NCBI RefSeq assembly: GCF_002005425.1
Contig: NZ_CP019704.1
Span: 372,001 to 436,000 of the forward strand
Reading direction: 5' to 3'
Length of the DNA: 64,000 bases
From: Polaribacter sp. BM10
GTDB lineage: Bacteria; Bacteroidota; Bacteroidia; Flavobacteriales; Flavobacteriaceae
The notes under the pieces are model-generated. The model had not been told where the DNA came from and did no database searches. It saw only the letters and a program-made list of their open reading frames with translations. Position 1 is the stretch's first letter. Each line of letters starts with the position of its first letter. Made by a program: the position numbers and the translations under genes. Positions 2,401 through 47,017 of the stretch are shown piece by piece.

Positions 2401-4878
2401 TTATTTAAGTTGATTAGAGTTTAACAGAAATACTGCATTGGCTACAAATAGTTTTCCGTTTTCCCAAAAAGATCTAAATAAAGGATTATCTACCATATAA
2501 ACAATACTTCCTCTTCCCATCGTTTGTTCTCCAAACAGTAAAGATTCAGGTACATTTTTTACAGCTTTACTTCCTGCATAACCAGAAACATTGTTAGAGT
2601 TTTTATCAAAATAACCAACATTATATCCTTTTTTTAAGTAACTGTATGAGGTTCCGCTTAGTTTTAAAGAAAAATATTCTTTATCATATCCAAAAGCTAA
2701 CGGATGCGAATTGTCTAATGTGCTTTTAAAAATACTTCCAGTAATTAAATTAGCAACACTTTTACGTTCTCTATCTTGGTAAGGAACTAAATTATTGTCA
2801 GTTTCTATTTCTGCATTCTTTTTTGTTTTTAAAGAGAATCCTTCTTTATTGGCAAAACTATTTAATGCATTTCCTATTGCTACTAATGTTCCGCCAGATC
2901 TTACCCATTTTTTTAAGTTAGATAAAGTAGAACCACTTAAAATACTATTGTAATAACCACTAGGTAAGATTATAACATCATATTTACTTAGATCTGTATA
3001 ACCAAAATTACTAGAGTTTATGTTAGTAATTGGGTATTCTAATTGAGTTTCAAAAAAGTGCCAAACTTCACCAAAACTTAAAGAAGAAGTTGCTTTACCA
3101 GAAACAACTGCTATTTTTTGCTTGTTAATTGGTTTAATTGCTGATGAACCAAAATCTACACCAGACTGAGAAAAACCAGTGGCAACAGATGTTAATTTAC
3201 GTTGATGTTTGTCTGCTATTGCTACAATTTTTGAATCAAAATCTGTGTTTCTGTTATCATTTCTAAGTATTATTAAAGTTCCTTTATCGTAAGATGTATT
3301 TTTTGCTGAAAAAGATTTTTCTGCAAACCTTGGTACAATATTATTCTTTAATAAATCTGCTAAGAAAGTAGCATCAGCAAGACTATTCCATTTAGAAACA
3401 TATGCATAAGCACTTTTATCTTCAGAATTTACAATAGTATTGTTAGTGTTAATAGTTGTAGAGTTTACCTTACTTTTAGATGCAACAGCATTAAAACCAT
3501 AAGCATACGGTAAAGACCATGCTGTAATATCATAAGTTAAAGAATCTACTAATTTAGCATTTGGTTCAAACAAAGCTTTTACCATTTTACCTTTTGGCTG
3601 ATCTGTATGAATAACTAAATCTTTATTGCTAACGTCTAATTTAGCATCTTTTTGAGTAGTATAACTATATCCTTTTACAGAACCATTTTTAGCACTTTCA
3701 TATTTTATTTCATGAGTGTCTAATAACTCTTTTAGACGATTCATTTTGTCTACGTTTTCGTTCTTTAAAACATAACTTTTAAAGTTTAAACCAGTATTAT
3801 TAAAGAATTTTCTGAATTCTAAGTTTAGTTTTTTAGCATTTTTTGAAGAAATCTCTACAGTAGATAAACCTGTAGTTAAATGGTGTGTTGCTCTATCTTT
3901 TAAAGTTAAAATTTCACCTTCATCTGTATGAATACCTAAACCTGCACGCCCATGACCAGCTTGTTCATAGGTCATACCAATTGCGCCCATATATGTTGGG
4001 TAAGTATCGCCATAACTTGGGTATAATAAATCGAAACTTTCTTTTGTAAAATACAACCAACCTTCTTTATCGAAATATTTTGCGTGATTTTTACCAATTT
4101 GTGTTTGAAAATCTCTTTGCCAATCAGTAATAATTTCATGAAAAGGTTCTGCCGCAGGAGCAAAGTAATACGGATTATTAATTCCTTGTTCATGAAAATC
4201 TACATGAATGTGAGGTATCCATTTATTGTAAACTTTAATTCTTTGTTTAGATTCTACTTGTGTTGCCCAAGCCCAATCTCTATTTAGATCGAATAAATAG
4301 TGATTTGGTCTTCCTCCTGGCCAAGGTTCTGTATGTTCTTTAGCATTTTGATCTGTATTATAAGGTGTGCTTTTTACTTGATTGTACCAATTTACATATC
4401 GATCTCTACCATCAGGATTTATACAAGGATCTAAAATAACAACCGTGTTTTCTAACCAAGCTTTTTTTGCAGTAACCAATTCGTATAATGTTAACATTGC
4501 TGCTTCTGTACTAGAAGCTTCGTTACCATGTACATTATAACTTAGCCATACAATGGCAATATCGTTTTTAGAATTACCAGAAATTACACCTGTTTGACTT
4601 AGATTATTTTTTCTTATGCTTTCTAAATTCTTAATATTTTCTGCAGAAGAAATGTAACTAACATATAAAGGTCTGTGTTCATTTGTTTCGCCATATTTCT
4701 CTAACTTTACATTAGATAAAGTGTTGCTAACATAATTAAAATAGTCTACAACTTTATGATGTCTTGTAAAACGAGCGCCAATTTCGTAACCTAAAAATTC
4801 TTTTGGAGATTTAATTTTTTGAGAAAATAGTGTTCCTGTTAATAAAAAAAGAACAACTACAATAGATTTGATTTTCAT
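2401..4878 (-). CDS. Secreted M14 family zinc carboxypeptidase with C-terminal GATase-like domain
   Basis: The 825-residue product has an N-terminal signal peptide (about residues 1-19, ending TLFSQ). The M14 catalytic domain shows the HxxE zinc motif (H117-G-N-E120), the NPDGRDR substrate block (154-160), DLNRDWAW (197-204) and the third ligand region HIHVDFHEQG (224-232). The C-terminal third contains a DJ-1/PfpI-like alpha/beta domain (YDVIILPSGYY, then a WVRSGGTLVAIGNA stretch), the usual architecture of this Bacteroidota subfamily. It should trim peptides in the periplasm or outside the cell. It is monocistronic: a TAnnTTTG-type -7 box lies upstream and a terminator downstream. Confidence 0.93.
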   Translation of the reverse strand: MKIKSIVVVLFLLTGTLFSQKIKSPKEFLGYEIGARFTRHHKVVDYFNYVSNTLSNVKLEKYGETNEHRPLYVSYISSAENIKNLESIRKNNLSQTGVISGNSKNDIAIVWLSYNVHGNEASSTEAAMLTLYELVTAKKAWLENTVVILDPCINPDGRDRYVNWYNQVKSTPYNTDQNAKEHTEPWPGGRPNHYLFDLNRDWAWATQVESKQRIKVYNKWIPHIHVDFHEQGINNPYYFAPAAEPFHEIITDWQRDFQTQIGKNHAKYFDKEGWLYFTKESFDLLYPSYGDTYPTYMGAIGMTYEQAGHGRAGLGIHTDEGEILTLKDRATHHLTTGLSTVEISSKNAKKLNLEFRKFFNNTGLNFKSYVLKNENVDKMNRLKELLDTHEIKYESAKNGSVKGYSYTTQKDAKLDVSNKDLVIHTDQPKGKMVKALFEPNAKLVDSLTYDITAWSLPYAYGFNAVASKSKVNSTTINTNNTIVNSEDKSAYAYVSKWNSLADATFLADLLKNNIVPRFAEKSFSAKNTSYDKGTLIILRNDNRNTDFDSKIVAIADKHQRKLTSVATGFSQSGVDFGSSAIKPINKQKIAVVSGKATSSLSFGEVWHFFETQLEYPITNINSSNFGYTDLSKYDVIILPSGYYNSILSGSTLSNLKKWVRSGGTLVAIGNALNSFANKEGFSLKTKKNAEIETDNNLVPYQDRERKSVANLITGSIFKSTLDNSHPLAFGYDKEYFSLKLSGTSYSYLKKGYNVGYFDKNSNNVSGYAGSKAVKNVPESLLFGEQTMGRGSIVYMVDNPLFRSFWENGKLFVANAVFLLNSNQLK

Positions 4879-4899
4879 GTAAGTGTTTGATTAGAAAAT

Positions 4900-4907
4900 C
4901 AAAAGTA
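4900..4907 (-). promoter_or_regulatory. Candidate -7 element of the M14 peptidase gene
   Basis: Read on the minus strand this is TACTTTTG, a full match to the Bacteroidota primary-sigma -7 consensus TAnnTTTG, 21 bp upstream of the ATG. I do not see a clear -33 TTG at the right distance. Confidence 0.5.
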
Positions 4908-5003
4908 ATAATATATTTTTAAAATTGTTAATTTGCAGAAAATAGAACTTGTTAAAACTTTGTTAGATTGATTTGTAGTGATTTACAAAGCTTAAAATAG
5001 TTG

Positions 5004-5011
5004 TATTTTTA
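5004..5011 (+). promoter_or_regulatory. Candidate -7 element of the leader ORF/bshC transcript
   Basis: TATTTTTA matches TAnnTTTG at seven of eight positions, with a TTT about 19 bp upstream as a weak -33. A transcript starting near 5016 would place the cysteine-rich leader ORF about 16 nt from its 5' end. Confidence 0.4.
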
Positions 5012-25464: not shown

Positions 25465-26028
25465 TTAAGATTTCTTAATAATTTCAGCTAAAAGTTTTTT
25501 TGCACGCAAAAGTTTAACTTTTACGTTATTCATTGGTTCGTTAATTTGTACAGAAATTTCTCTATAACTTAATTCTTGAAAATAACGTAATTGTATAACT
25601 TCTTGATATTTAGGTTTTAATTGTTTTATGTCTCGCAAAAGATTTGCTAAATTTTGTTCTCGAATGATTTTATCTTCTGGTGTTGGGTTTTCATCAACAA
25701 CCAAATAAACTTTATCTTCTTGTTCTTTAGAAGTTTCTGTAATTATAGAACTATTTTTTTTACGAAGTAAATCGATGTGTATGTTTTTAGAAATAGTAAT
25801 TAACCAAGTTTTAAAAACATAAGTTTCATCAAAAGACTTTATTTTATCAAAAGCTTTAGAAAACGTTTGTATTGCGATGTCCTCTGCATCGTTTTCGCTC
25901 TTTGTTCTTTTTAATAAAAAATTAAAAACATCAGACCAATAGAGGTTCAGTAGAAAGCTAAAAGCAGATTGATCTCCGTTTTTAGCTTTTAAAATATTTG
26001 CTTCTAATTTTTTAATATCTATTTCCAA
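25465..26028 (-). CDS. ECF-type RNA polymerase sigma factor
   Basis: The 187-residue sigma-70 family protein has region 2 (VFNFLLKRTKSENDAEDIAIQTFSKAF, with the DAEDI core helix) near residues 35-60. Region 4 (LKPKYQEVIQLRYFQELSYREIS) lies near 135-160. The likely start is TTG at 26028, which lies inside the 3' end of the glycosyltransferase gene (10-bp overlap). No anti-sigma gene is next to it; the downstream gene is the Nramp-like transporter, with zero spacing. Its target promoters are not evident. Confidence 0.88.
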   Translation of the reverse strand: MEIDIKKLEANILKAKNGDQSAFSFLLNLYWSDVFNFLLKRTKSENDAEDIAIQTFSKAFDKIKSFDETYVFKTWLITISKNIHIDLLRKKNSSIITETSKEQEDKVYLVVDENPTPEDKIIREQNLANLLRDIKQLKPKYQEVIQLRYFQELSYREISVQINEPMNNVKVKLLRAKKLLAEIIKKS

Positions 26029-28299: not shown

Positions 28300-28320
28300 A
28301 AGATCTTTAGAGATTAAATA

Positions 28321-28352
28321 AAAAAGACTGCTCTGTAAAGCAGTCTTTTTTT
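28321..28352 (+). terminator. Rho-independent terminator
   Basis: GACTGCT (28326-28332) pairs with AGCAGTC (28339-28345), extended by A/T arms, with a T run. It ends the mscS-like gene. Confidence 0.88.
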
Positions 28353-28382: not shown

Positions 28383-28961
28383 TTGACCGAAGAAAATTTA
28401 ATAGAAGCATTAAAATCTGGAAATCAGAAAGTTTTTAGTCAAGTTATCGATGATTATCAACAGAAAGTTTTTGGTACCTGTATCTCTTTTATTCCAAATA
28501 AAGAAGATGCAGAAGATGTTGCGCAAGAAGTTTTCTTAGAAGTTTTTAAATCTATAGCCAAATTTAAAGGAGATTCTAAATTATCTACTTGGATTTTTAA
28601 AATAGCTACAAATAAGTGTTTAGAATTTATCAGAAAAAAGAATGCTAAAAAACGTTTTGCTTTTATGCAAACCATTTTTGGTAATGAAGTGCCATTAGAT
28701 AAAACTAGCTATTTTACAGAATTTAACCATCCGGGTGTTTTATTAGAAAATAAAGAAAAATCAGTAACTATTTACAAAGCTATAAATACCTTGCCCGAAG
28801 CACAAAGAGTAGTTTTTACATTAGCTAAAATTGATGATAAAAGTTATCAAGAAATTGTAGAGATTACAGGTAAAAGTTTATCATCTGTTGAGTCTTTAAT
28901 GTTTAGGGCAAAAAAGAGTTTACAAGAAAAATTAACAAAATTTTATAAAAATGATATTTAG
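28383..28961 (+). CDS. ECF sigma factor of the metal/envelope-stress module
   Basis: The 192-residue sigma factor shows region 2 (IPNKEDAEDVAQEVFLEVFKSIAKF and LSTWIFKIATNKCLEFIRKK) and region 4 (LPEAQRVVFTLAKIDDKSYQEI, then SVESLMFRAKKSL). The start is TTG at 28383. A near-consensus primary-sigma -7 (TATGTTTA, 28354-28361) lies 22 bp upstream, so the gene itself seems to be housekeeping-driven. Its stop is three bases before a repeated promoter motif that also precedes two further operons. The order sigma, single-TM protein, periplasmic sensor suggests a CnrH-like system. Confidence 0.9.
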   Translation: MTEENLIEALKSGNQKVFSQVIDDYQQKVFGTCISFIPNKEDAEDVAQEVFLEVFKSIAKFKGDSKLSTWIFKIATNKCLEFIRKKNAKKRFAFMQTIFGNEVPLDKTSYFTEFNHPGVLLENKEKSVTIYKAINTLPEAQRVVFTLAKIDDKSYQEIVEITGKSLSSVESLMFRAKKSLQEKLTKFYKNDI

Positions 28962-28964
28962 GCG

Positions 28965-28992
28965 CAAGTTTTTACAAAAGTTTGCATCTAAA
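28965..28992 (+). promoter_or_regulatory. ECF-type promoter copy A: CAAGTTTTT-N10-GCATCTAAA
   Basis: CAAGTTTTT (28965-28973) and GCATCTAAA (28984-28992) are separated by exactly 10 bp, 33 bp before the ATG of the single-TM gene. The same bipartite motif with identical spacing recurs at 29916 and 30384. Confidence 0.75.
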
Positions 28993-29025
28993 TAGGTACA
29001 TGTTTATTTTAATAAAGTGTTAAAA

Positions 29026-29340
29026 ATGAAAAATAAAGAAATAGATAAGAAAGTTGAAGATACTTTTATGGCTATAGAAACCATAGAAAAAGTGAAAGTA
29101 AGTCCTTATTTTAAACATCAAATTCTTCAAAAAATAAATGAAGATAAAGAAGAAAAAGAAAAGGTTTTCTCTTGGCTTACTCCTCAATTTCAATTGGCTG
29201 CTGTTTTGGTAATTCTGTTTTTAAATGCAGCAACTATTTTTTACGCTTTTAATTCATCAGAAAAAACGACAAATTACTCTGTAGATACATTTTCTCAAGA
29301 GTATTCTTTAGAGTCTACAAGTAATTCTTATTTAAATTAA
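29026..29340 (+). CDS. Single-TM protein, candidate anti-sigma factor
   Basis: I use the ATG at 29026 (104 residues); the upstream GTG at 29017 adds only three residues. The N-terminal ~50 residues are cytoplasmic-like and charged, with a VSPYFKHQILQKI segment resembling the YF-containing motif of the partner protein in the second ECF module. A single TM spans about residues 55-75, with a short polar periplasmic tail. This is the expected shape of an anti-sigma anchored in the inner membrane. It sits between the sigma gene and the sensor gene (6-bp gap to the latter). Confidence 0.7.
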   Translation: MKNKEIDKKVEDTFMAIETIEKVKVSPYFKHQILQKINEDKEEKEKVFSWLTPQFQLAAVLVILFLNAATIFYAFNSSEKTTNYSVDTFSQEYSLESTSNSYLN

Positions 29341-29346
29341 TAAAAG

Positions 29347-29835
29347 ATGAAATCAAAATTACTTCCTATTTTATTATTGCTGTTGGTCGTTTTAAACGGC
29401 GTACTTATTTTTATGCTAATCAATAAACCGCACATTAAAGAAAACGAAAGACGTGGTAGAGATTTTCTTATAGAAGAATTAAATTTTACCAAAGATCAAG
29501 AAAAAGAATTTTTGGTTTTAGATACGTCTCATAGAGAAAAGATGAGAAGTTTAGAGGAACAGGTAAAAAATAATAAAAATAAATTATTCAATTCTTTTGG
29601 GATATTAGAACAAGAAGTGGAATTAATAGCTAAAGAAATAGGCTCTTTAGAAGGTAAAAAAGAGTTAGAAGTATTTTCTTTTTTTAATAAGGTTCGTGAT
29701 TTGTGTTCACAAGAACAGAAAGATAAATTAGAAAAGATTGTTAGAAAAGCTATACATGGCAATAATAAAATGCCACCACCAAGAGACGGTAGAATGCCAC
29801 CTCAAAATAGAGGAAACCGACCACCACCAAGATAA
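29347..29835 (+). CDS. Periplasmic Spy/CpxP- or CnrX-like sensor protein
   Basis: The 162-residue protein has an N-terminal hydrophobic anchor (residues 5-26). A helical domain follows with the LTxxQ-like element LNFTKDQEKEFLVLDTSHREKM and the second half FNKVRDLCSQEQKDKLEKIV, typical of Spy/CpxP and heavy-metal-resistance sensors. The last ~20 residues are Pro/Arg-rich (PPPRDGRMPPQNRGNRPPPR). It probably detects metal or misfolded protein in the periplasm and controls the upstream sigma/anti-sigma pair. A strong terminator closes the operon. Confidence 0.8.
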   Translation: MKSKLLPILLLLLVVLNGVLIFMLINKPHIKENERRGRDFLIEELNFTKDQEKEFLVLDTSHREKMRSLEEQVKNNKNKLFNSFGILEQEVELIAKEIGSLEGKKELEVFSFFNKVRDLCSQEQKDKLEKIVRKAIHGNNKMPPPRDGRMPPQNRGNRPPPR

Positions 29836-29856
29836 TTTTTGTTTTTAATTATATTC

Positions 29857-29893
29857 AAAAAGCCTTATTTCTAAATTAGAAATAAGGCTTTTT
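29857..29893 (+). terminator. Rho-independent terminator, 18-bp stem
   Basis: AAAAAGCCTTATTTCTAA and its exact complement TTAGAAATAAGGCTTTTT are separated by a single base, giving a near-perfect hairpin after the sensor gene. Confidence 0.93.
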
Positions 29894-29915
29894 GTTAAAA
29901 TAAAGTTAACGCATA

Positions 29916-29943
29916 CAAGTTTTTTTTAATACCTGCATCTAAA
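29916..29943 (+). promoter_or_regulatory. ECF-type promoter copy B: CAAGTTTTT-N10-GCATCTAAA
   Basis: CAAGTTTTT (29916-29924), a 10-bp spacer and GCATCTAAA (29935-29943), 28 bp before the ATG of the EF-hand gene. Confidence 0.75.
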
Positions 29944-29971
29944 TATTCAAAACAAGTAAAAACTTATAAAA

Positions 29972-30265
29972 ATGAAGAATTTAGAAAACAAAATAGTAAC
30001 ATCTTTAGCAGTAATAGTTTTAACAACATCTATAACTTATGCCCAAGAGGAAGAAAGAAGAGAGAAACCAAAAGGGCCGCCATCAATAGCTAAAATTTTA
30101 AAAGATTTAGATGTTAATGAAGACGGTAAAATTTCTTTAAAGGAAGCTAAAGGTCCGTTGAAAAAAGATTTTAAGAAAATCGATACTAATGAAGATGGTT
30201 TTCTATCTAAAAAGGAGTTAAAAAATGCACCAAAACCAGAAAGAAGAGAAAGACCAAGAAATTAA
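29972..30265 (+). CDS. Exported EF-hand protein
   Basis: A 97-residue protein with a signal peptide (to about residue 24, ITYAQ). Two canonical 12-residue EF-hand loops follow: D47-V-N-E-D51-G-K-I-S-L-K-E58 and D71-T-N-E-D75-G-F-L-S-K-K-E82. Charged Arg/Pro segments flank them (EERREKPKGPP and PERRERPRN). It should bind Ca2+, or another divalent ion, in the periplasm. It is a single-gene unit between copy B of the ECF-type promoter and its own terminator, which ties it to the upstream sigma factor. Confidence 0.87.
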   Translation: MKNLENKIVTSLAVIVLTTSITYAQEEERREKPKGPPSIAKILKDLDVNEDGKISLKEAKGPLKKDFKKIDTNEDGFLSKKELKNAPKPERRERPRN

Positions 30266-30329
30266 TAAAATATGTACACAAGAAAATAAAAAAAAATAAA
30301 ATTTGATTTGAGTTTGGTTAGTTGATTAA

Positions 30330-30360
30330 AGGCTTCGTAAGCAATTACGAGGCTTTTTTC
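30330..30360 (+). terminator. Rho-independent terminator
   Basis: GGCTTCGTAA pairs with TTACGAGGCT (two wobble pairs) around a GCAA tetraloop, followed by T6. It ends the EF-hand gene. Confidence 0.8.
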
Positions 30361-30383
30361 TAAAAAAAATATAAACTTAAGCA

Positions 30384-30411
30384 CAAGTTTTTTTAATTAA
30401 TTGCATCTAAA
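30384..30411 (+). promoter_or_regulatory. ECF-type promoter copy C: CAAGTTTTT-N10-GCATCTAAA
   Basis: CAAGTTTTT (30384-30392), a 10-bp spacer and GCATCTAAA (30403-30411), 28 bp before the ATG of the YHYH gene, the same distance as copy B. Confidence 0.75.
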
Positions 30412-30439
30412 ATATATATAACTTTTAAAATACATTAAT

Positions 30440-31225
30440 ATGAGATTTAAAATCGTAAAAAAAATAGCTCTTTTAGCAGTAATTATATTCTACAGTTTTG
30501 CATGTAGCTCTTCAGAAGGTGCTGTATCAGTAGAAGAAGTAGAAGAAATTGAAGAAATTGAAGTAACACTTCATAGTGCATTTGCAGAGTTTGATACAAC
30601 AGAAACAGATATTTATTTACAAGGTTCTAACGTTGTAATCGAAACCACGGGTTTACCAAATCATAAAACACCATATTGGAGTGAAAATCATCCATTATAT
30701 GTAGCACCAACTGTAACTAGTACAGATAAAATGACACCAACCAGAATAGATACATCTGGGCGAGATAATTCTGCTTCTTTAACCGTACCAGCAAATCCTA
30801 GTAAAGCCAACTCAACATCTAATACCCAATTAGGCGCTATTGGTATTGCAATTAGCGGTGCTTTTTTATACAATGATCAAGAAGGCAATGGACCTTTAGA
30901 TTCTGCAGCAGGAAGTTTAGATTACTCTGGTGCACACATTGGCCCTTCAAATTATCATTATCATTTAGAACCTTTGGCTTTTTCTGATGACGACGATAAA
31001 TTAAATGGTATTATTTCTGATGGTTTTTTTATTTATGGTAGAAAGTGTAACTCTACAGGAACATATCCAACAGATTTAGATAGTTCTGGCGGACATGTAA
31101 GTACTACGCAACATACAGATATTGCAGAATATCATTATCATATTATCAATGAGTTGTATGCAAGTACAGGTAGGTACATACTTTTTGCAGGACCCTATCA
31201 AGGAACCCCAAATGCAGTTAACTAG
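30440..31225 (+). CDS. YHYH domain lipoprotein
   Basis: The 261-residue product has a lipoprotein signal with a SFAC lipobox near residue 21, an acidic linker (VEEVEEIEEIEV), and a YHYH-family domain. The hallmark motifs are SNYHYHLEP near residue 175 and AEYHYHI near 235. The family is of uncertain function; the His-rich motifs suggest metal binding. It is the first gene of a three-gene operon with overlapping ends (MORN-repeat lipoprotein, then SCO copper chaperone), driven by copy C of the ECF-type promoter. This supports a metal, perhaps copper, connection. Confidence 0.85.
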   Translation: MRFKIVKKIALLAVIIFYSFACSSSEGAVSVEEVEEIEEIEVTLHSAFAEFDTTETDIYLQGSNVVIETTGLPNHKTPYWSENHPLYVAPTVTSTDKMTPTRIDTSGRDNSASLTVPANPSKANSTSNTQLGAIGIAISGAFLYNDQEGNGPLDSAAGSLDYSGAHIGPSNYHYHLEPLAFSDDDDKLNGIISDGFFIYGRKCNSTGTYPTDLDSSGGHVSTTQHTDIAEYHYHIINELYASTGRYILFAGPYQGTPNAVN

Positions 31226-31808
31226 AATATTACTTATCGTTATTTTGGCTCTTAGTAGCTGTAATAAAACTTCTGTTAAAACAACATCTAAAAAAGAAAT
31301 TAAAAATTTTCTAGTTGATAAAAATAAATTAGAATTAATCAAAGAAAAAGGGCAGTGGTTTTACATGGATAATCCTTTTAATGGATTTGCTGTAAAATAT
31401 TATAGTAATTCATCATTATCTGAAAAAATAGGTTACTATAACGGAAAAAAAGAAGGTTTAGCATATAAGTTTTTTAAAGATGGTACCGTAAAAACTAAAT
31501 CATATTATAATAAAAATGTTTTAGAAGGAACAAAAATAAAGTACTATTCTTCGGGTAAAATCTTTTCTGAATCTAAGTATCTAAATGGTAAAAAACATGG
31601 GATAGAACAAGTTTGGTTTGAAAATGGACAATTGTCAAAAAAAAAGAACTTAAAAGATGGTAAAGAGAATGGTTTACAACAAGCTTGGTTAAAAAATGGA
31701 AAAATATATGTTAACTACGAAGCTAAAAATGGTAGAGCATTTGGTTTGCAAAGAGCTAATTTATGCTATCAATTATCTAACGAAAAAATTATAGAAAATG
31801 TTAAATAG
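31212..31808 (+). CDS. MORN-repeat (YwqK-like) lipoprotein
   Basis: The ATG at 31212 gives a 198-residue product with a clear lipoprotein signal (QLTRILLIVILALSSC). Starts further upstream lie within the YHYH gene and lack a signal. The body is a chain of MORN/YwqK-type repeats: YYNGKKEGLAYKFFKDG, YYNKNVLEGTKIKYYSSG, YLNGKKHGIEQVWFENG and LKDGKENGLQQAWLKNG. Such proteins are often labelled toxin-antitoxin YwqK antitoxin, but nothing here supports that role. It overlaps its neighbours by 14 bp and 11 bp, so it is co-translated with YHYH and SCO. Confidence 0.83.
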   Translation: MQLTRILLIVILALSSCNKTSVKTTSKKEIKNFLVDKNKLELIKEKGQWFYMDNPFNGFAVKYYSNSSLSEKIGYYNGKKEGLAYKFFKDGTVKTKSYYNKNVLEGTKIKYYSSGKIFSESKYLNGKKHGIEQVWFENGQLSKKKNLKDGKENGLQQAWLKNGKIYVNYEAKNGRAFGLQRANLCYQLSNEKIIENVK

Positions 31809-32454
31809 ATTTTTTTTATTAATTGGTTTTATCATTATGATAAGCTGTAAAAGTAACAATAAAGAAAAAATGTCTAGTAGGGTAAATGTATTGCCTTTTT
31901 ATAATGAAGCATCTTTTACTCCTAAATGGTTATCATCTTTAGATACAGATTTAGATGATTTTCATAGCATTCCAGATTTTAATTTTATTAATCAAGATGG
32001 TCGTGTAGTTAATCAGAATACATTTAAAAATAAAATCTATGTGGCAGATTTTTTCTTTACAACTTGTCCTGGTATTTGTCCTAAAATGACGGCAAATATG
32101 AGTATAGTTGCAGATAAATTTAAAAACGATACTACGGTATTATTTTTATCTCATTCTGTTACGCCTTTAATAGATTCGGTTGCACAATTAAAAAAATACG
32201 CATTAGACAAAAATATTGGTAAAAATTGGCATTTAGTAACTGGTAATAAAAAAGAAATTTACGATTTAGGAAGACAAGCCTATTTTGTAGAAGAAAATTT
32301 AGGAGAACCTAAAGGATTAGACGATTTTTTACACACAGAAAACTTTGTCTTAATTGATAAAAACAAACACATTAGAGGTATTTATAACGGTTTGAATAAA
32401 AATTCTGTTATGCAGTTAATTGAAGATATAAAAACCTTAAAGAAAGAGAAGTAG
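31798..32454 (+). CDS. SCO1/SenC family copper-chaperone lipoprotein
   Basis: SCO proteins deliver copper to the CuA site of cytochrome oxidase or act as thiol reductases. The 218-residue product has a lipoprotein Cys17 (IMISC), a thioredoxin-like fold, the copper motif C90-P-G-I-C94 in FFFTTCPGICPKM, and the conserved ligand H178 in DDFLHTENF. All three copper ligands are present. As the last gene of the YHYH-MORN-SCO operon it gives the strongest functional hint for the ECF regulon: copper or redox homeostasis at the envelope. Confidence 0.92.
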   Translation: MLNRFFLLIGFIIMISCKSNNKEKMSSRVNVLPFYNEASFTPKWLSSLDTDLDDFHSIPDFNFINQDGRVVNQNTFKNKIYVADFFFTTCPGICPKMTANMSIVADKFKNDTTVLFLSHSVTPLIDSVAQLKKYALDKNIGKNWHLVTGNKKEIYDLGRQAYFVEENLGEPKGLDDFLHTENFVLIDKNKHIRGIYNGLNKNSVMQLIEDIKTLKKEK

Positions 32455-43933: not shown

Positions 43934-44389
43934 TTATTCTTTTTTACTTCTTCCTTTACCATATTTTCTCATTAACTTTCTAGCGAATTCTCTTTCAGAA
44001 ATATGAAGTTTCATTATTTTTCTGTAAGATAAAAACTTAGAAACTTTAGTGTTAAAATCTTCTTTTTCTGAGGCCATTTCGTTTTCTAACTCTAGTCTTA
44101 ATAAAACTAGTTTTTTTGCATCAGATTCTTCTAATTTGCTTAAATCGCCTGCTTCTTTAATTTTTTTCTTGTATTCTATACGTCCTTTATTTCTAAGAAA
44201 ATCTATCTTTTCTTCGTGTTTGTTGTATAAAGGCCAAAATTTTTCTGCCTCGCTAGAAGTAAGCTGTAATTCCTCTGTTAAATAAGCTGTTTTTAAAGCT
44301 TTAATTTTTTTTCTACTTTCTTTAGTATGCTGTGCTATACTGCTAAAAGAAGTAAGTATTATTGTTAAAAGTAAGATGTATTTTTTCAT
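43934..44389 (-). CDS. Periplasmic sensor of the second ECF sigma module
   Basis: A 151-residue exported protein (signal peptide to about residue 19, SSIAQ). Its helical body has an LTSSEAEKFWPLYNKHEEKI segment and a repeat-like C-terminal half (EDFNTKVSKFLSYRKIMKLHISEREFARKL), typical of Spy/CpxP-like proteins annotated as sensors of ECF sigma factors. It is the last gene of the minus-strand operon sigma, single-TM partner, sensor, two bases from the partner gene. It probably senses envelope stress; the signal is unknown. Confidence 0.83.
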   Translation of the reverse strand: MKKYILLLTIILTSFSSIAQHTKESRKKIKALKTAYLTEELQLTSSEAEKFWPLYNKHEEKIDFLRNKGRIEYKKKIKEAGDLSKLEESDAKKLVLLRLELENEMASEKEDFNTKVSKFLSYRKIMKLHISEREFARKLMRKYGKGRSKKE

Positions 44390-44391
44390 TA

Positions 44392-44934
44392 TTAATAGTT
44401 TTCGTTTAATAAAGATGTGTTTTCAGAATCTATAATGTAATCTTCTATATCTGTATTGTTTAGACTTGCAAAAGCAAAGTCATTTTCGTTATTTACTTCA
44501 TTATTAATTAAGGCTGCAAAATCTTCATCAGAAATATCACTTGCATTTTCAATTACCCAGTTTTCTATATCTGCTTCAGCTAAAGTGTCAAAATTTATTT
44601 CATCAGTTTTAAAATTATTATAAAAATTGATGCTTAAAAATAACACAACAGAAGCTGCTGCTGCAATTGGTATAAACCTAATTATTTTATCTTTTAAAGA
44701 GATTATTTTACCTTTTTTAGAAACAATTACTTTGTTTATTATTGAATCTTCTAATGTGTCAAAGTAATTATCTGGTATAGAAAAACCATTTTCTTTCGGA
44801 AATTTTTCTTCTTTAAGAAAGGCAGAGAATTTATCTTCTGCATTCTCAAAATAATTTTCGGGAGCAGACAAACCAGTATTTTTTTTAATTACCGATTTTA
44901 AAAAGTCTTCGCTATGTTTAATTTTGTTTTCCAT
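44392..44934 (-). CDS. Single-TM partner (candidate anti-sigma) of the second ECF module
   Basis: The 180-residue protein has a cytoplasmic N-terminal ~85 residues with a tandem motif: GLSAPENYFENAED (residues 21-34) and GFSIPDNYFDTLED (50-63). One TM follows (about 86-104), then a strongly acidic periplasmic part with two similar elements (ADIENWVIE, TDIEDYIID). The paired YF motifs face the cytoplasm, where they could hold the sigma factor. A dedicated ECF-type promoter lies directly upstream, overlapping the sigma gene's stop codon, in addition to that of the operon. Confidence 0.78.
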   Translation of the reverse strand: MENKIKHSEDFLKSVIKKNTGLSAPENYFENAEDKFSAFLKEEKFPKENGFSIPDNYFDTLEDSIINKVIVSKKGKIISLKDKIIRFIPIAAAASVVLFLSINFYNNFKTDEINFDTLAEADIENWVIENASDISDEDFAALINNEVNNENDFAFASLNNTDIEDYIIDSENTSLLNENY

Positions 44935-44945
44935 AATTACTCTTT

Positions 44946-44975
44946 AGACACAATTATTTACAAAAGGTTTAATCT
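44946..44975 (-). promoter_or_regulatory. Second-module ECF-type promoter, copy before the partner gene
   Basis: On the minus strand, AGATTAAACCTTTTGTA (44959-44975), 8 bp, then TGTCT (44946-44950), 11 bp before the ATG. The 17-bp block is identical to the one at 45549-45565, with the same spacing. The sigma gene's TAA stop lies within the block. Confidence 0.72.
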
Positions 44976-45517
44976 GTTTGATTTTTTATATAGCTTTCTA
45001 TTTTTTTAACTGCATGAAAATAAGAAGATTTAAGAGCTCCTACAGAAGTTTCTAAAATTTCTGACATTTCGTTATACTTAATTTCATCAAAATATTTCAT
45101 GTTAAATACAAGTTGCTGCTTTTGTGGTAGCGTAGCAATTGCTTTTTGAAGTATAATCTGAATTTCATCACCAGAAAAATACACATCACTTTCTAAACTA
45201 GATGCTAATTGTTCGTGCATTTCAGAGATATCTACATTTCTGTCTTTTACACGTTTATTAATAAATGTAATAGATTCGTTTGTGGCAATTCTGTACATCC
45301 AAGAAAACAACTTGCTTTCTTGGTTAAACTTATCGATGTTTTTGTAAACCTTTATAAATGTGTTTTGTAAAACGTCGTCTGCATCATCATGAGAAACTAC
45401 AATTTTACGAATATGCCAATACAAGCGCTCTTTGTAGAGTTTTATTAACTCTCTAAAGGCAGTTTCTCTAGTGGTAACATTTTTAAGTTGTTCTATTAAA
45501 ACAATTTCGTCTTTCAA
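44969..45517 (-). CDS. ECF sigma factor of the second module
   Basis: The 182-residue sigma factor has region 2 (VSHDDADDVLQNTFIKVYKNIDKF and KLFSWMYRIATNESITFINKR) and region 4 (LPQKQQLVFNMKYFDEIKYNEMSEIL, then SVGALKSSYFHAVKKI-like helix). The start is TTG at 45517 (minus). It is preceded by an ECF-type promoter motif that recurs before the partner gene, indicating positive autoregulation. The operon order matches the first ECF module at 28383-29835. Confidence 0.9.
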   Translation of the reverse strand: MKDEIVLIEQLKNVTTRETAFRELIKLYKERLYWHIRKIVVSHDDADDVLQNTFIKVYKNIDKFNQESKLFSWMYRIATNESITFINKRVKDRNVDISEMHEQLASSLESDVYFSGDEIQIILQKAIATLPQKQQLVFNMKYFDEIKYNEMSEILETSVGALKSSYFHAVKKIESYIKNQTD

Positions 45518-45535
45518 TTGGGTTGTTTTTTAGTA

Positions 45536-45565
45536 AGACAAAATTTTATACAAAAGGTTTAATCT
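45536..45565 (-). promoter_or_regulatory. Second-module ECF-type promoter, copy before the sigma gene
   Basis: On the minus strand, AGATTAAACCTTTTGTA (45549-45565), 8 bp, then TGTCT (45536-45540), 18 bp before the TTG start. An AAC-containing -35 with a GTC-type -10 is typical of ECF promoters. Confidence 0.72.
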
Positions 45566-45568
45566 ATA

Positions 45569-47017
45569 TTATTTATCTATTCTAGATCTAGAGTAACCAA
45601 ACAATCTTTTTTGCTTAATTATTTCTGGAATTCCTTCTGGTAACATTTCTTCCCAACCTTTTTTACCATCTAAAATCATTTTTAAAACTGTACGAGAAAA
45701 AATATCTAAAATTTCTTTATCAAAGTCATCAATATCTACAACTTTACCATTGTGCTTAAAGAATTTAAACAATTCTTTCATTCTAGGGTGCACTTTTAAG
45801 TTCTCGCTGGTAATGTATTCTCCTGATGCTTGATCGTGATAAGGATACATGTAAACTTTTAAATCTCTATAGAAAAGTTTACCAAATGCTTCTAAAATTC
45901 CACCACTTAAATTTCTGTAGTACTTTTCATCAAAAATTTGAATTAAGTTTTGAACACCCATAGTTAACCCCATTCTTTCTTTGGTAAATTCACTAAAGTA
46001 TTCTACCAATTTAAAGTATTGCTGAAAACTAGTAATCATTACATTTTGTCCGAGAGAACAAAGTAGTTCTGCTCTGTCTAAAAAGTCTCTTTCGTTGATT
46101 TTACCTTCTGCACTTAAATTACTTAAGGTAATTTCGAAAATAACTTGTGTTTTACTTTCTTCAACTTTATTTTCTTCGAAGAAAAGTTTTTTCGACTTCT
46201 CAAACATATCCATATTTACCTTAGTAACTGGTCTAAAGCTACCTCTTAAGGCCAAAATATTCTTTTTGTATAATACTTGTGCTGGTAATAAGTTGTTTCC
46301 GTCTGGGCCAAACATTACTGCATTTGTCATTCCGTTTTTAAGTAATTGTAAACTCATTAAACGGTTATCAACATACATAAAACGAGGTCCAGAGAAATTA
46401 ATCATATCAATTTCTAATTGATCGTTACTTAAATTATGGTAAAAAGATTTTACCAATTCTTTCGGATTATCATTTAAGTAAAAAGCACCGTAAATTAAGT
46501 TTACACCTAAAATACCTAAAGTTTCTTGTTGTAAACGAGCGTCTGTTTCTTTAAAACGTAAGTGTAAAATAATTTCGTTGTATCCCTCTAAAGGATCTAA
46601 CTGAAAACGGATTCCGACCCAACCATGACCTTTAAATTTCTTTGCAAAATCTATAGTTGTTACGGTATTTGCATAACTAAAAAATAATTTATCAGGATGT
46701 TTAGATCTACTTAATCGATCTTCCATCAAATCGATTTCATGACGTAACATTTTCTTTAAACGAGGTTGAGTAACATAGCGTTTATCTTCTTCGATACCAT
46801 AAATAGCATCAGAAAAATCTTTATCATATGCACTCATTGCCTTTGCAATTGTACCAGAAGCAGCACCAGATCTAAAAAAATTACGCGCTGTTTCTTGTCC
46901 GGCTCCAATTTCGGCAAAAGTACCGTAAATATCAGAGTTTAAGTTAATTCTAAGCGCTTTGCTTTTAGTTGTTGGTACACTACTTATTTCTTGATCTCCT
47001 TTTAAAGAAATTGCCAT
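45569..47017 (-). CDS. Conserved cytoplasmic protein of unknown function
   Basis: A 482-residue soluble protein without signal peptide or TM. It begins MAISLKGDQEISSVPTTKS and has conserved-looking blocks FAEIGAGQETARNFFRSGAASG and TIAKAMSAYDKDFSDAIYG, then HPDKLFFSYANTVTTIDF and GPDGNNLLPAQVLYKKN. I recall near-identical proteins across Bacteroidota. Some carry labels such as TonB-dependent receptor or nucleotide adenylyltransferase, which nothing in the sequence supports. It is monocistronic and divergent from the MBL hydrolase gene, 77 bp apart. Function open. Confidence 0.75.
   Translation of the reverse strand: MAISLKGDQEISSVPTTKSKALRINLNSDIYGTFAEIGAGQETARNFFRSGAASGTIAKAMSAYDKDFSDAIYGIEEDKRYVTQPRLKKMLRHEIDLMEDRLSRSKHPDKLFFSYANTVTTIDFAKKFKGHGWVGIRFQLDPLEGYNEIILHLRFKETDARLQQETLGILGVNLIYGAFYLNDNPKELVKSFYHNLSNDQLEIDMINFSGPRFMYVDNRLMSLQLLKNGMTNAVMFGPDGNNLLPAQVLYKKNILALRGSFRPVTKVNMDMFEKSKKLFFEENKVEESKTQVIFEITLSNLSAEGKINERDFLDRAELLCSLGQNVMITSFQQYFKLVEYFSEFTKERMGLTMGVQNLIQIFDEKYYRNLSGGILEAFGKLFYRDLKVYMYPYHDQASGEYITSENLKVHPRMKELFKFFKHNGKVVDIDDFDKEILDIFSRTVLKMILDGKKGWEEMLPEGIPEIIKQKRLFGYSRSRIDK

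Follow-up and report, generated by a model that had tools for sequence, protein, structure and literature searches.

We found that three copies of a two-part signal, CAAGTTTTT-N10-GCATCTAAA, in a stretch of 64,000 nucleotides from Polaribacter sp. BM10 very probably serve as switches for the adjacent alternative sigma factor, a member of the extracytoplasmic function (ECF) class whose gene begins at 28383. In relatives the signal is found again ahead of the same cell-envelope genes, which are poorly understood. This stretch, referred to as the window, covers bases 372001-436000 of the genome (G000; one contig of 3,254,403 bases, 99.79% complete). The explanation that we favour as a whole is that the three copies are promoters of this factor, which would be under anti-sigma and sensor control; on the sequence comparisons described here we give it a probability of about 0.92. 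CAAGTT is the predicted -35 element and (G)CATCTAA the predicted -10 element of the three promoters. At the level of sequence, comparison between genomes established the motif with its spacing, the link between motif and sigma gene, and the set of genes behind it.

The window scan found the exact motif at three positions, all on the plus strand (Table 1). Its end lies 33 bp before the ATG of the gene at 29026 and 28 bp before those of the genes at 29972 and 30440. The initial annotation had described three identical box pairs with a fixed N10, 28-33 bp before ATGs and only downstream of the sigma gene. This was confirmed, and the three are the only exact copies in the whole 3.25-Mb genome. With up to three mismatches, four matches were seen in the window against 0.48 expected, and one of 100 shuffles reached four. 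At the same tolerance the genome gave 36 matches, 29 of them with three mismatches, against 19 in all for the reversed motif used as a control.

Among 146 congeneric genomes, the sigma ortholog (E <= 1e-40) was found in 37, BM10 included. When any spacer from N6 to N14 was allowed, 65 box pairs were obtained in these 146 genomes, 64 at N10 and one at N6, against two for the reversed control. Motif and sigma gene occurred together in 32 genomes, the sigma gene alone in five, the motif alone in one and neither in 108 (Fisher p 8e-26). A family set of 299 genomes was searched with the looser pattern CAAGTTT-N13-CATCTAAA, which gave 92 hits (hand count; six for the reversed control) in 36 genomes. 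The sigma gene was present in 35 genomes of this set: 30 had both, five the sigma gene only, six the pattern only and 258 neither (Fisher p 4e-30).

Loci were fetched for 59 of the 71 sigma-positive places, and 58 of these were usable downstream (L095 ends early). A motif-free search of the 140 bp past the sigma stop codon returned CAAG-N16-CATC as the commonest dyad, present in 57 of the 58 regions and in at most 15 in ten shuffles. A site within three mismatches follows the sigma gene in all 58 regions, and C1, A2, G4, T7, T8, C21, A22, T23, C24 and A27 are invariant in the 58 best sites. The letters between the boxes vary, both in the genus and in the family, while the boxes and their spacing are constant. 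Fixed spacing, co-occurrence, this phylogenetic footprint and loss together with the sigma gene strongly support the proposal, made in the initial annotation, that the boxes are promoters of the adjacent ECF factor. A random scatter across the genome, which would have spoken against that proposal, was not what the scans gave, and chance as the origin of the motif was ruled out by its uniqueness in the genome, its spacing and its footprint compared with shuffles and controls.

The motif also stands where promoters would be expected. In the fetched loci, an ATG frame of at least 40 amino acids (aa) begins within 110 bp of 68 of the 74 exact sites, although one or more of these 68 frames is an out-of-frame artefact; for random positions the figure was 777 of 3000. 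A scan of 60 fetched loci with up to three mismatches (AAGT and CATCTA required) gave 143 sites, 125 of them followed by such a frame; as the loci were fetched around known matches, these tallies show what follows the motif and not how often genes lack it. By similarity, the 125 frames comprise 36 anti-sigma genes, 23 EF-hand and five long EF-hand genes, 19 YHYH genes, six His-rich YHYH genes with EF-hand, five CotH and three long CotH-like genes, five VTC genes, five genes for an unknown 190-aa protein, three cytochrome peroxidase genes, two for a small membrane protein and two sulfatase-like (both named by eye), one sigma gene and ten others. Ten proteins behind the motif were checked with Pfam. 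Some short frames behind sites upstream of sigma genes are out-of-frame artefacts, and those sigma genes use other start codons. In mapped clusters of relatives, DUF4956 and DUF2490 genes come after the VTC gene.

In 37 sigma-positive loci, a site within two mismatches precedes the anti-sigma gene in 36 of 36 cases, the YHYH gene in 23 of 37 and the EF-hand gene in 30 of 47. No site was seen before the sensor (0/37), MORN (0/34) or SCO (0/33) genes, as expected for inner genes of operons. In the same loci the reversed motif, used as a control, gave no match within three mismatches ahead of anti-sigma, YHYH or EF-hand genes.

The sigma gene itself had been noted to lack the motif. This stood for the genus, where no match better than five mismatches was found upstream of the sigma gene in 30 loci (BM10 included), but outside the genus 14 of 29 loci carry the motif there with 0-2 mismatches; it lies 57 bp from the start in L111 and 23-31 bp from it in the other 13. 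Its absence is therefore a trait of the genus and not of the system, and positive autoregulation of the sigma gene is likely in parts of the family because of these 14 upstream sites. Within the genus, expression of the sigma gene appears to depend on a different promoter, whereas several other genera also have a predicted promoter of the factor's own class before it.

Table 1. Features of the sigma factor cluster, in window coordinates.
Feature	Position	Strand	Basis or context
Terminator-like hairpin	28320..28351	.	Between MscS-type channel gene and sigma gene
ECF sigma factor, 192 aa, TTG start	28383..28961	+	Pfam Sigma70_r2 (60.8 bits) and Sigma70_r4_2 (59.7 bits), over cut-off
Promoter motif 1 (predicted)	28965..28992	+	Ahead of anti-sigma/sensor operon
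Putative anti-sigma factor, 104 aa, CnrY-like layout	29026..29340	+	Position, conservation; one hydrophobic segment by eye
Periplasmic sensor (predicted), 162 aa, CnrX/Spy/CpxP fold, N-terminal hydrophobic helix	29347..29835	+	AlphaFold model
19-bp perfect inverted repeat	29856..29894	+	3' of sensor gene; T run in 3' arm
Promoter motif 2 (predicted)	29916..29943	+	Ahead of EF-hand gene
EF-hand protein, 97 aa, two loops	29972..30265	+	EF-hand_5 42.3 bits, cut-off 25.9
Promoter motif 3 (predicted)	30384..30411	+	Ahead of YHYH-MORN-SCO operon
YHYH protein, 261 aa, lipobox by eye	30440..31225	+	Pfam YHYH 39.2 bits, cut-off 25
MORN-variant (YwqK-like) protein, 198 aa, lipobox by eye	31212..31808	+	MORN_2 29.0 bits, just below cut-off 29.6
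SCO1/SenC-family protein, 218 aa, lipobox by eye	31798..32454	+	Pfam SCO1-SenC 87.2 bits

The genes from 30440 to 32454 overlap end to start, which fits a single operon. Separate transcription units seem to begin at motifs 1 and 2, because a hairpin stands 5' of the sigma gene and the inverted repeat 3' of the sensor gene; this repeat is likely a terminator, though absent from the list of the terminator scan. The same scan called no hairpin between the EF-hand gene and motif 3. The protein at 28383 has the length and both Pfam regions of an ECF factor, and no Pfam family scored over cut-off for the 29026 protein. The start of the EF-hand protein looks like a signal peptide (by eye). The SCO1 protein belongs to the SCO1/SenC family and retains CPGICP and HTENF, found in at least 80% of 34 aligned sequences; we take the CxxxC and His residues to be copper ligands. 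The genome has one YHYH gene only and gave no match for a CotH gene.

The looser matches elsewhere in the genome with fewer than three mismatches were considered as distal members and rejected, so the promoters counted in BM10 are three. The one-mismatch copy (C1:1842012) is antisense inside an alaS-like gene (named by eye). This coding match (L004, 1501-1528) has near-identical letters in many congeneric genomes and is a trap for motif scans. A two-mismatch site (L005) lies within a gene. At L006 (1501-1550), TAAGTTTTT-N10-GCAACTAAA stands 20 bp before an outer-membrane-type gene (named by eye); T23 is changed here, yet it is invariant in 58/58 sites, and the box pair may belong to another ECF factor. 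At L007 the box reads GCGTCTAAA: AAAGTTTTT-N10-GCGTCTAAA (1501-1610) is ahead of a short intergenic region in which two hairpins and a run of T were seen by eye, possibly an ECF-driven small RNA.

Taken together with the gene order, the promoters suggest a circuit. The small membrane protein at 29026 would most likely, to judge from the layout, keep the sigma factor inactive in the manner of a CnrY-like anti-sigma factor. The CnrX/Spy-fold protein at 29347 would sense a periplasmic condition and trigger release of the sigma factor. Once freed, the factor would transcribe its own anti-sigma/sensor pair, as feedback, along with the EF-hand gene and the YHYH-MORN-SCO1 operon. The signal is probably envelope stress and may involve metal.

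We compared an AlphaFold model of the sensor (mean pLDDT 73.5, core helices about 90, from eight sequences) with known structures. Its best Foldseek match was CnrX, with TM 0.70-0.80 normalised by target over the CnrX chains, and structure comparison with CnrX aligned 101 residues at a root-mean-square deviation of 2.5; the CnrX-like sensor named in the initial annotation is thus supported by the predicted fold. NccX, Spy, CpxP and ZraP likewise matched the model. A search of the Protein Data Bank (PDB) sequences with the sensor profile gave no convincing match, the best being Spy at E 0.058, and the sensor scored 18.6 bits against a threshold of 24.3 for the LTXXQ/Spy family (PF07813). CnrX binds metal through H42, H46 and H119. 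In alignments of 36 and of eight sequences these His ligands were not found in the sensor core, where one His only (H62) is conserved, together with M66 and C120. The sensor therefore probably has a CnrX-like fold, as modelled, without the CnrX ligand set. Stops interrupt the sensor gene in the Polaribacter filamentus assembly (L045, 6001-6500), which may be an assembly error or a real loss.

Relatives of the sigma factor occur across the phylum in 80 of 395 genomes (E <= 1e-40, BM10 included). We examined 29 loci of distant relatives by eye; in 26 or more of them, genes for a small protein containing a hydrophobic segment and for a Spy/CnrX-like protein follow the sigma gene. This recurring order of sigma, anti-sigma-like and Spy/CnrX-like genes marks a broad type of system. 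In two loci of deep relatives (L235 and L252), cytochrome-peroxidase-like genes (by eye) follow.

Several observations weigh against the favoured explanation. The p values for co-occurrence take no account of relatedness among the genomes. The exact motif is absent from five congeneric genomes that have the sigma gene (G024, G029, G064, G042 and G062), the first three of which have sites with one or two mismatches. G082 has the motif without the sigma gene, with no reading frame behind the site, and in six family genomes the looser pattern occurs although the sigma gene is missing. No site precedes 14 of the 37 YHYH genes and 17 of the 47 EF-hand matches in sigma-positive loci; of 15 YHYH genes without a site in a slightly narrower search interval, three have the other box described below and 12 neither, some being inner genes of operons. 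It is the gene layout alone that suggests an anti-sigma role for the 29026 protein. The Z-score of 11.8 between sensor and CnrX is below the value of about 13 advised for helical bundles, the Foldseek E value is 0.028, and unrelated helical chains reach Z 8-10 against the sensor model (T4 Vs.4 at 9.3, seryl-tRNA synthetase at about 8).

The boxes could instead be promoters of another ECF factor in the genome, or of several with overlapping specificity. Genomes of this kind hold several ECF genes, at least two more of them in the window (25465-26028 and 44969-45517), and a parallel box class, AAACTWTT-N11-ARGTCTAA, stands with equal spacing before another ECF gene and YHYH genes. We consider this improbable, since the motif tracks the 28383 sigma gene over the 146 and the 299 genomes and follows its ortholog in every usable region, and since ECF genes resembling the 25465-26028 factor by their neighbours also occur in loci without the motif. 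Alternatively, the boxes could be operators for some DNA-binding regulator, or near-identical letters at three places could reflect a common sequence that was copied along with the genes. This is the least probable alternative: copying is hard to square with inter-box letters that vary while boxes and spacing persist, the -10-like TCTAA and its distance to the ATG suit an ECF promoter, and the motif precedes unrelated gene families.

A further alternative concerns the signal and is compatible with promoters of the 28383 factor. The initial annotation had proposed a metal-homeostasis regulon, perhaps for copper; this was not established, and nothing in our analysis directly supported copper as the signal. 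Metal sensing is possible but unproven, because the CnrX His ligands are missing from the sensor, and the regulon of relatives adds further genes. Those for CotH kinase, VTC/DUF4956 and cytochrome peroxidase point equally to the cell surface or oxidative stress; DUF2490 genes are also among them. The same promoters could thus answer to envelope, oxidative or cell-surface stress through a Spy/CpxP-type sensor, both of these proteins matching the model as CnrX does. CnrX is, however, the top structural match, H62, M66 and C120 could form another metal site, and SCO1 and YHYH suggest metal chemistry. One study predicts, as a prediction only, that YHYH is a Zn-dependent hydrolase with a Zn site (PMC7824862). 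We put the chances of a stress signal in place of metal at even, with metal sensing and envelope or oxidative stress roughly equal in likelihood.

The operon also occurs without the sigma gene. YHYH relatives were found in 75 of the 146 congeneric genomes, 40 of which (hand count) had no sigma match at E <= 1e-40; 20 loci were taken from 19 such genomes. All 20 retain YHYH, MORN and SCO in a row, and in none does the motif precede the operon head (best match four mismatches), although this absence is less certain in G052, G059, G066 and G115, whose assemblies are 68-81% complete. At L228 (G115, 3226-5010), a distant sigma relative cut by the contig end is followed by anti-sigma-like and sensor-like genes and then by YHYH-MORN-SCO, so the link between sigma factor and operon may predate the promoter class of the motif. 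A sulfatase-like gene (by eye) heads the operon in L218, L221 and L223, from genomes without the sigma ortholog; L189 and L190 have a sulfatase-like gene with a two-mismatch motif.

In 12 of these 20 loci, AAACTWTT-N11-ARGTCTAA (up to two mismatches) stands before the operon, against 1/20 for the reversed control, its halves as far apart as those of the first motif. Across the genus the second pattern gave 80 hits (hand sum) in 54 genomes against 20 for the control, so its matches are partly noise; a hit lies just before ten YHYH genes. As AAACTTTTT-N10-AGGTCTAA, it stands ahead of both the ECF gene and the Spy-like gene of L289-L291; in L292 the genes behind it are the Spy-like one and one more. 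In each of these loci gmk/nadD-like genes adjoin (by eye). The second box class probably comprises promoters of a second ECF system; it is a lead and not a test, as it was noticed post hoc in the same loci. On the minus strand of the window, 43934-45570 holds an ECF gene (44969-45517), a putative anti-sigma gene (44392-44934) and a Spy-like gene (43934-44389, by eye). AAACCTTTTG...TGTCT boxes lie at 45560-45531 and 44970-44944 (by eye), ahead of that ECF gene and its anti-sigma gene, and we regard the region as a second such system, parallel to the first, that uses a promoter class of its own.

The system resembles CnrH-CnrY-CnrX of Cupriavidus metallidurans in placing an ECF gene beside those for a small putative membrane anti-sigma factor (segment by eye) and a CnrX-fold sensor. 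The known order is cnrYXH; here it is sigma, anti-sigma, sensor. Unlike CnrX, of which E63 and M123 also appear in PDB titles, the sensor has none of the His ligands. No resistance-nodulation-division efflux genes are found in the cluster or downstream of its three motif copies, which are the genome's only exact ones, and the regulon consists instead of EF-hand, YHYH, MORN and SCO1 proteins. With CnrH/CnrY/CnrX-like control, other ligands and another regulon, this is a variant of a known system. By sequence, the closest solved structure to the sigma factor is RpoE (2.9e-24) and the best NCBIfam model SigW, but it falls below the cut-offs of the SigW and RpoE equivalogs (117.6 against 209 and 103.4 against 236.15 bits).

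The ECF motif SM6 of F. psychrophilum has a CGT box and targets that include type IX secretion (PMC9723704). It shares with our motif the use of alternative promoters with an ECF-type -10 box; CATCTAA with CAAGTT was not found in the accessible part of that source. CotH, polyphosphate polymerase and DUF4956 genes lie beside Gram-positive pel loci (PMC7112168). The same three families are co-clustered in the relatives studied here; unlike beside the pel loci, they occur with an ECF motif and with YHYH and EF-hand genes, and BM10 lacks a CotH match. The initial annotation had not recognised the regulon as a described one, and we likewise found no description among the papers listed in the literature searched, with most subscription journals outside it.

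In a family for which few ECF targets are known, our results define a predicted promoter of an alternative sigma factor sharply enough to be tested. One signal would tie together YHYH, EF-hand, SCO1, CotH and VTC/DUF4956 proteins, several of which have no known function. More tentatively, and with rather less than even confidence, we suggest that Flavobacteriaceae have ECF systems with Spy/CnrX-like partners in two or three parallel versions, their promoters alike in spacing and TCTAA and differing in a few -35/-10 letters. The YHYH-MORN-SCO1 operon would then be a new envelope response module, passing between sigma factors through minor alterations of its promoter as genes for these factors are gained and lost. 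Genomes that keep the operon without the sigma ortholog offer a natural experiment in promoter rewiring.

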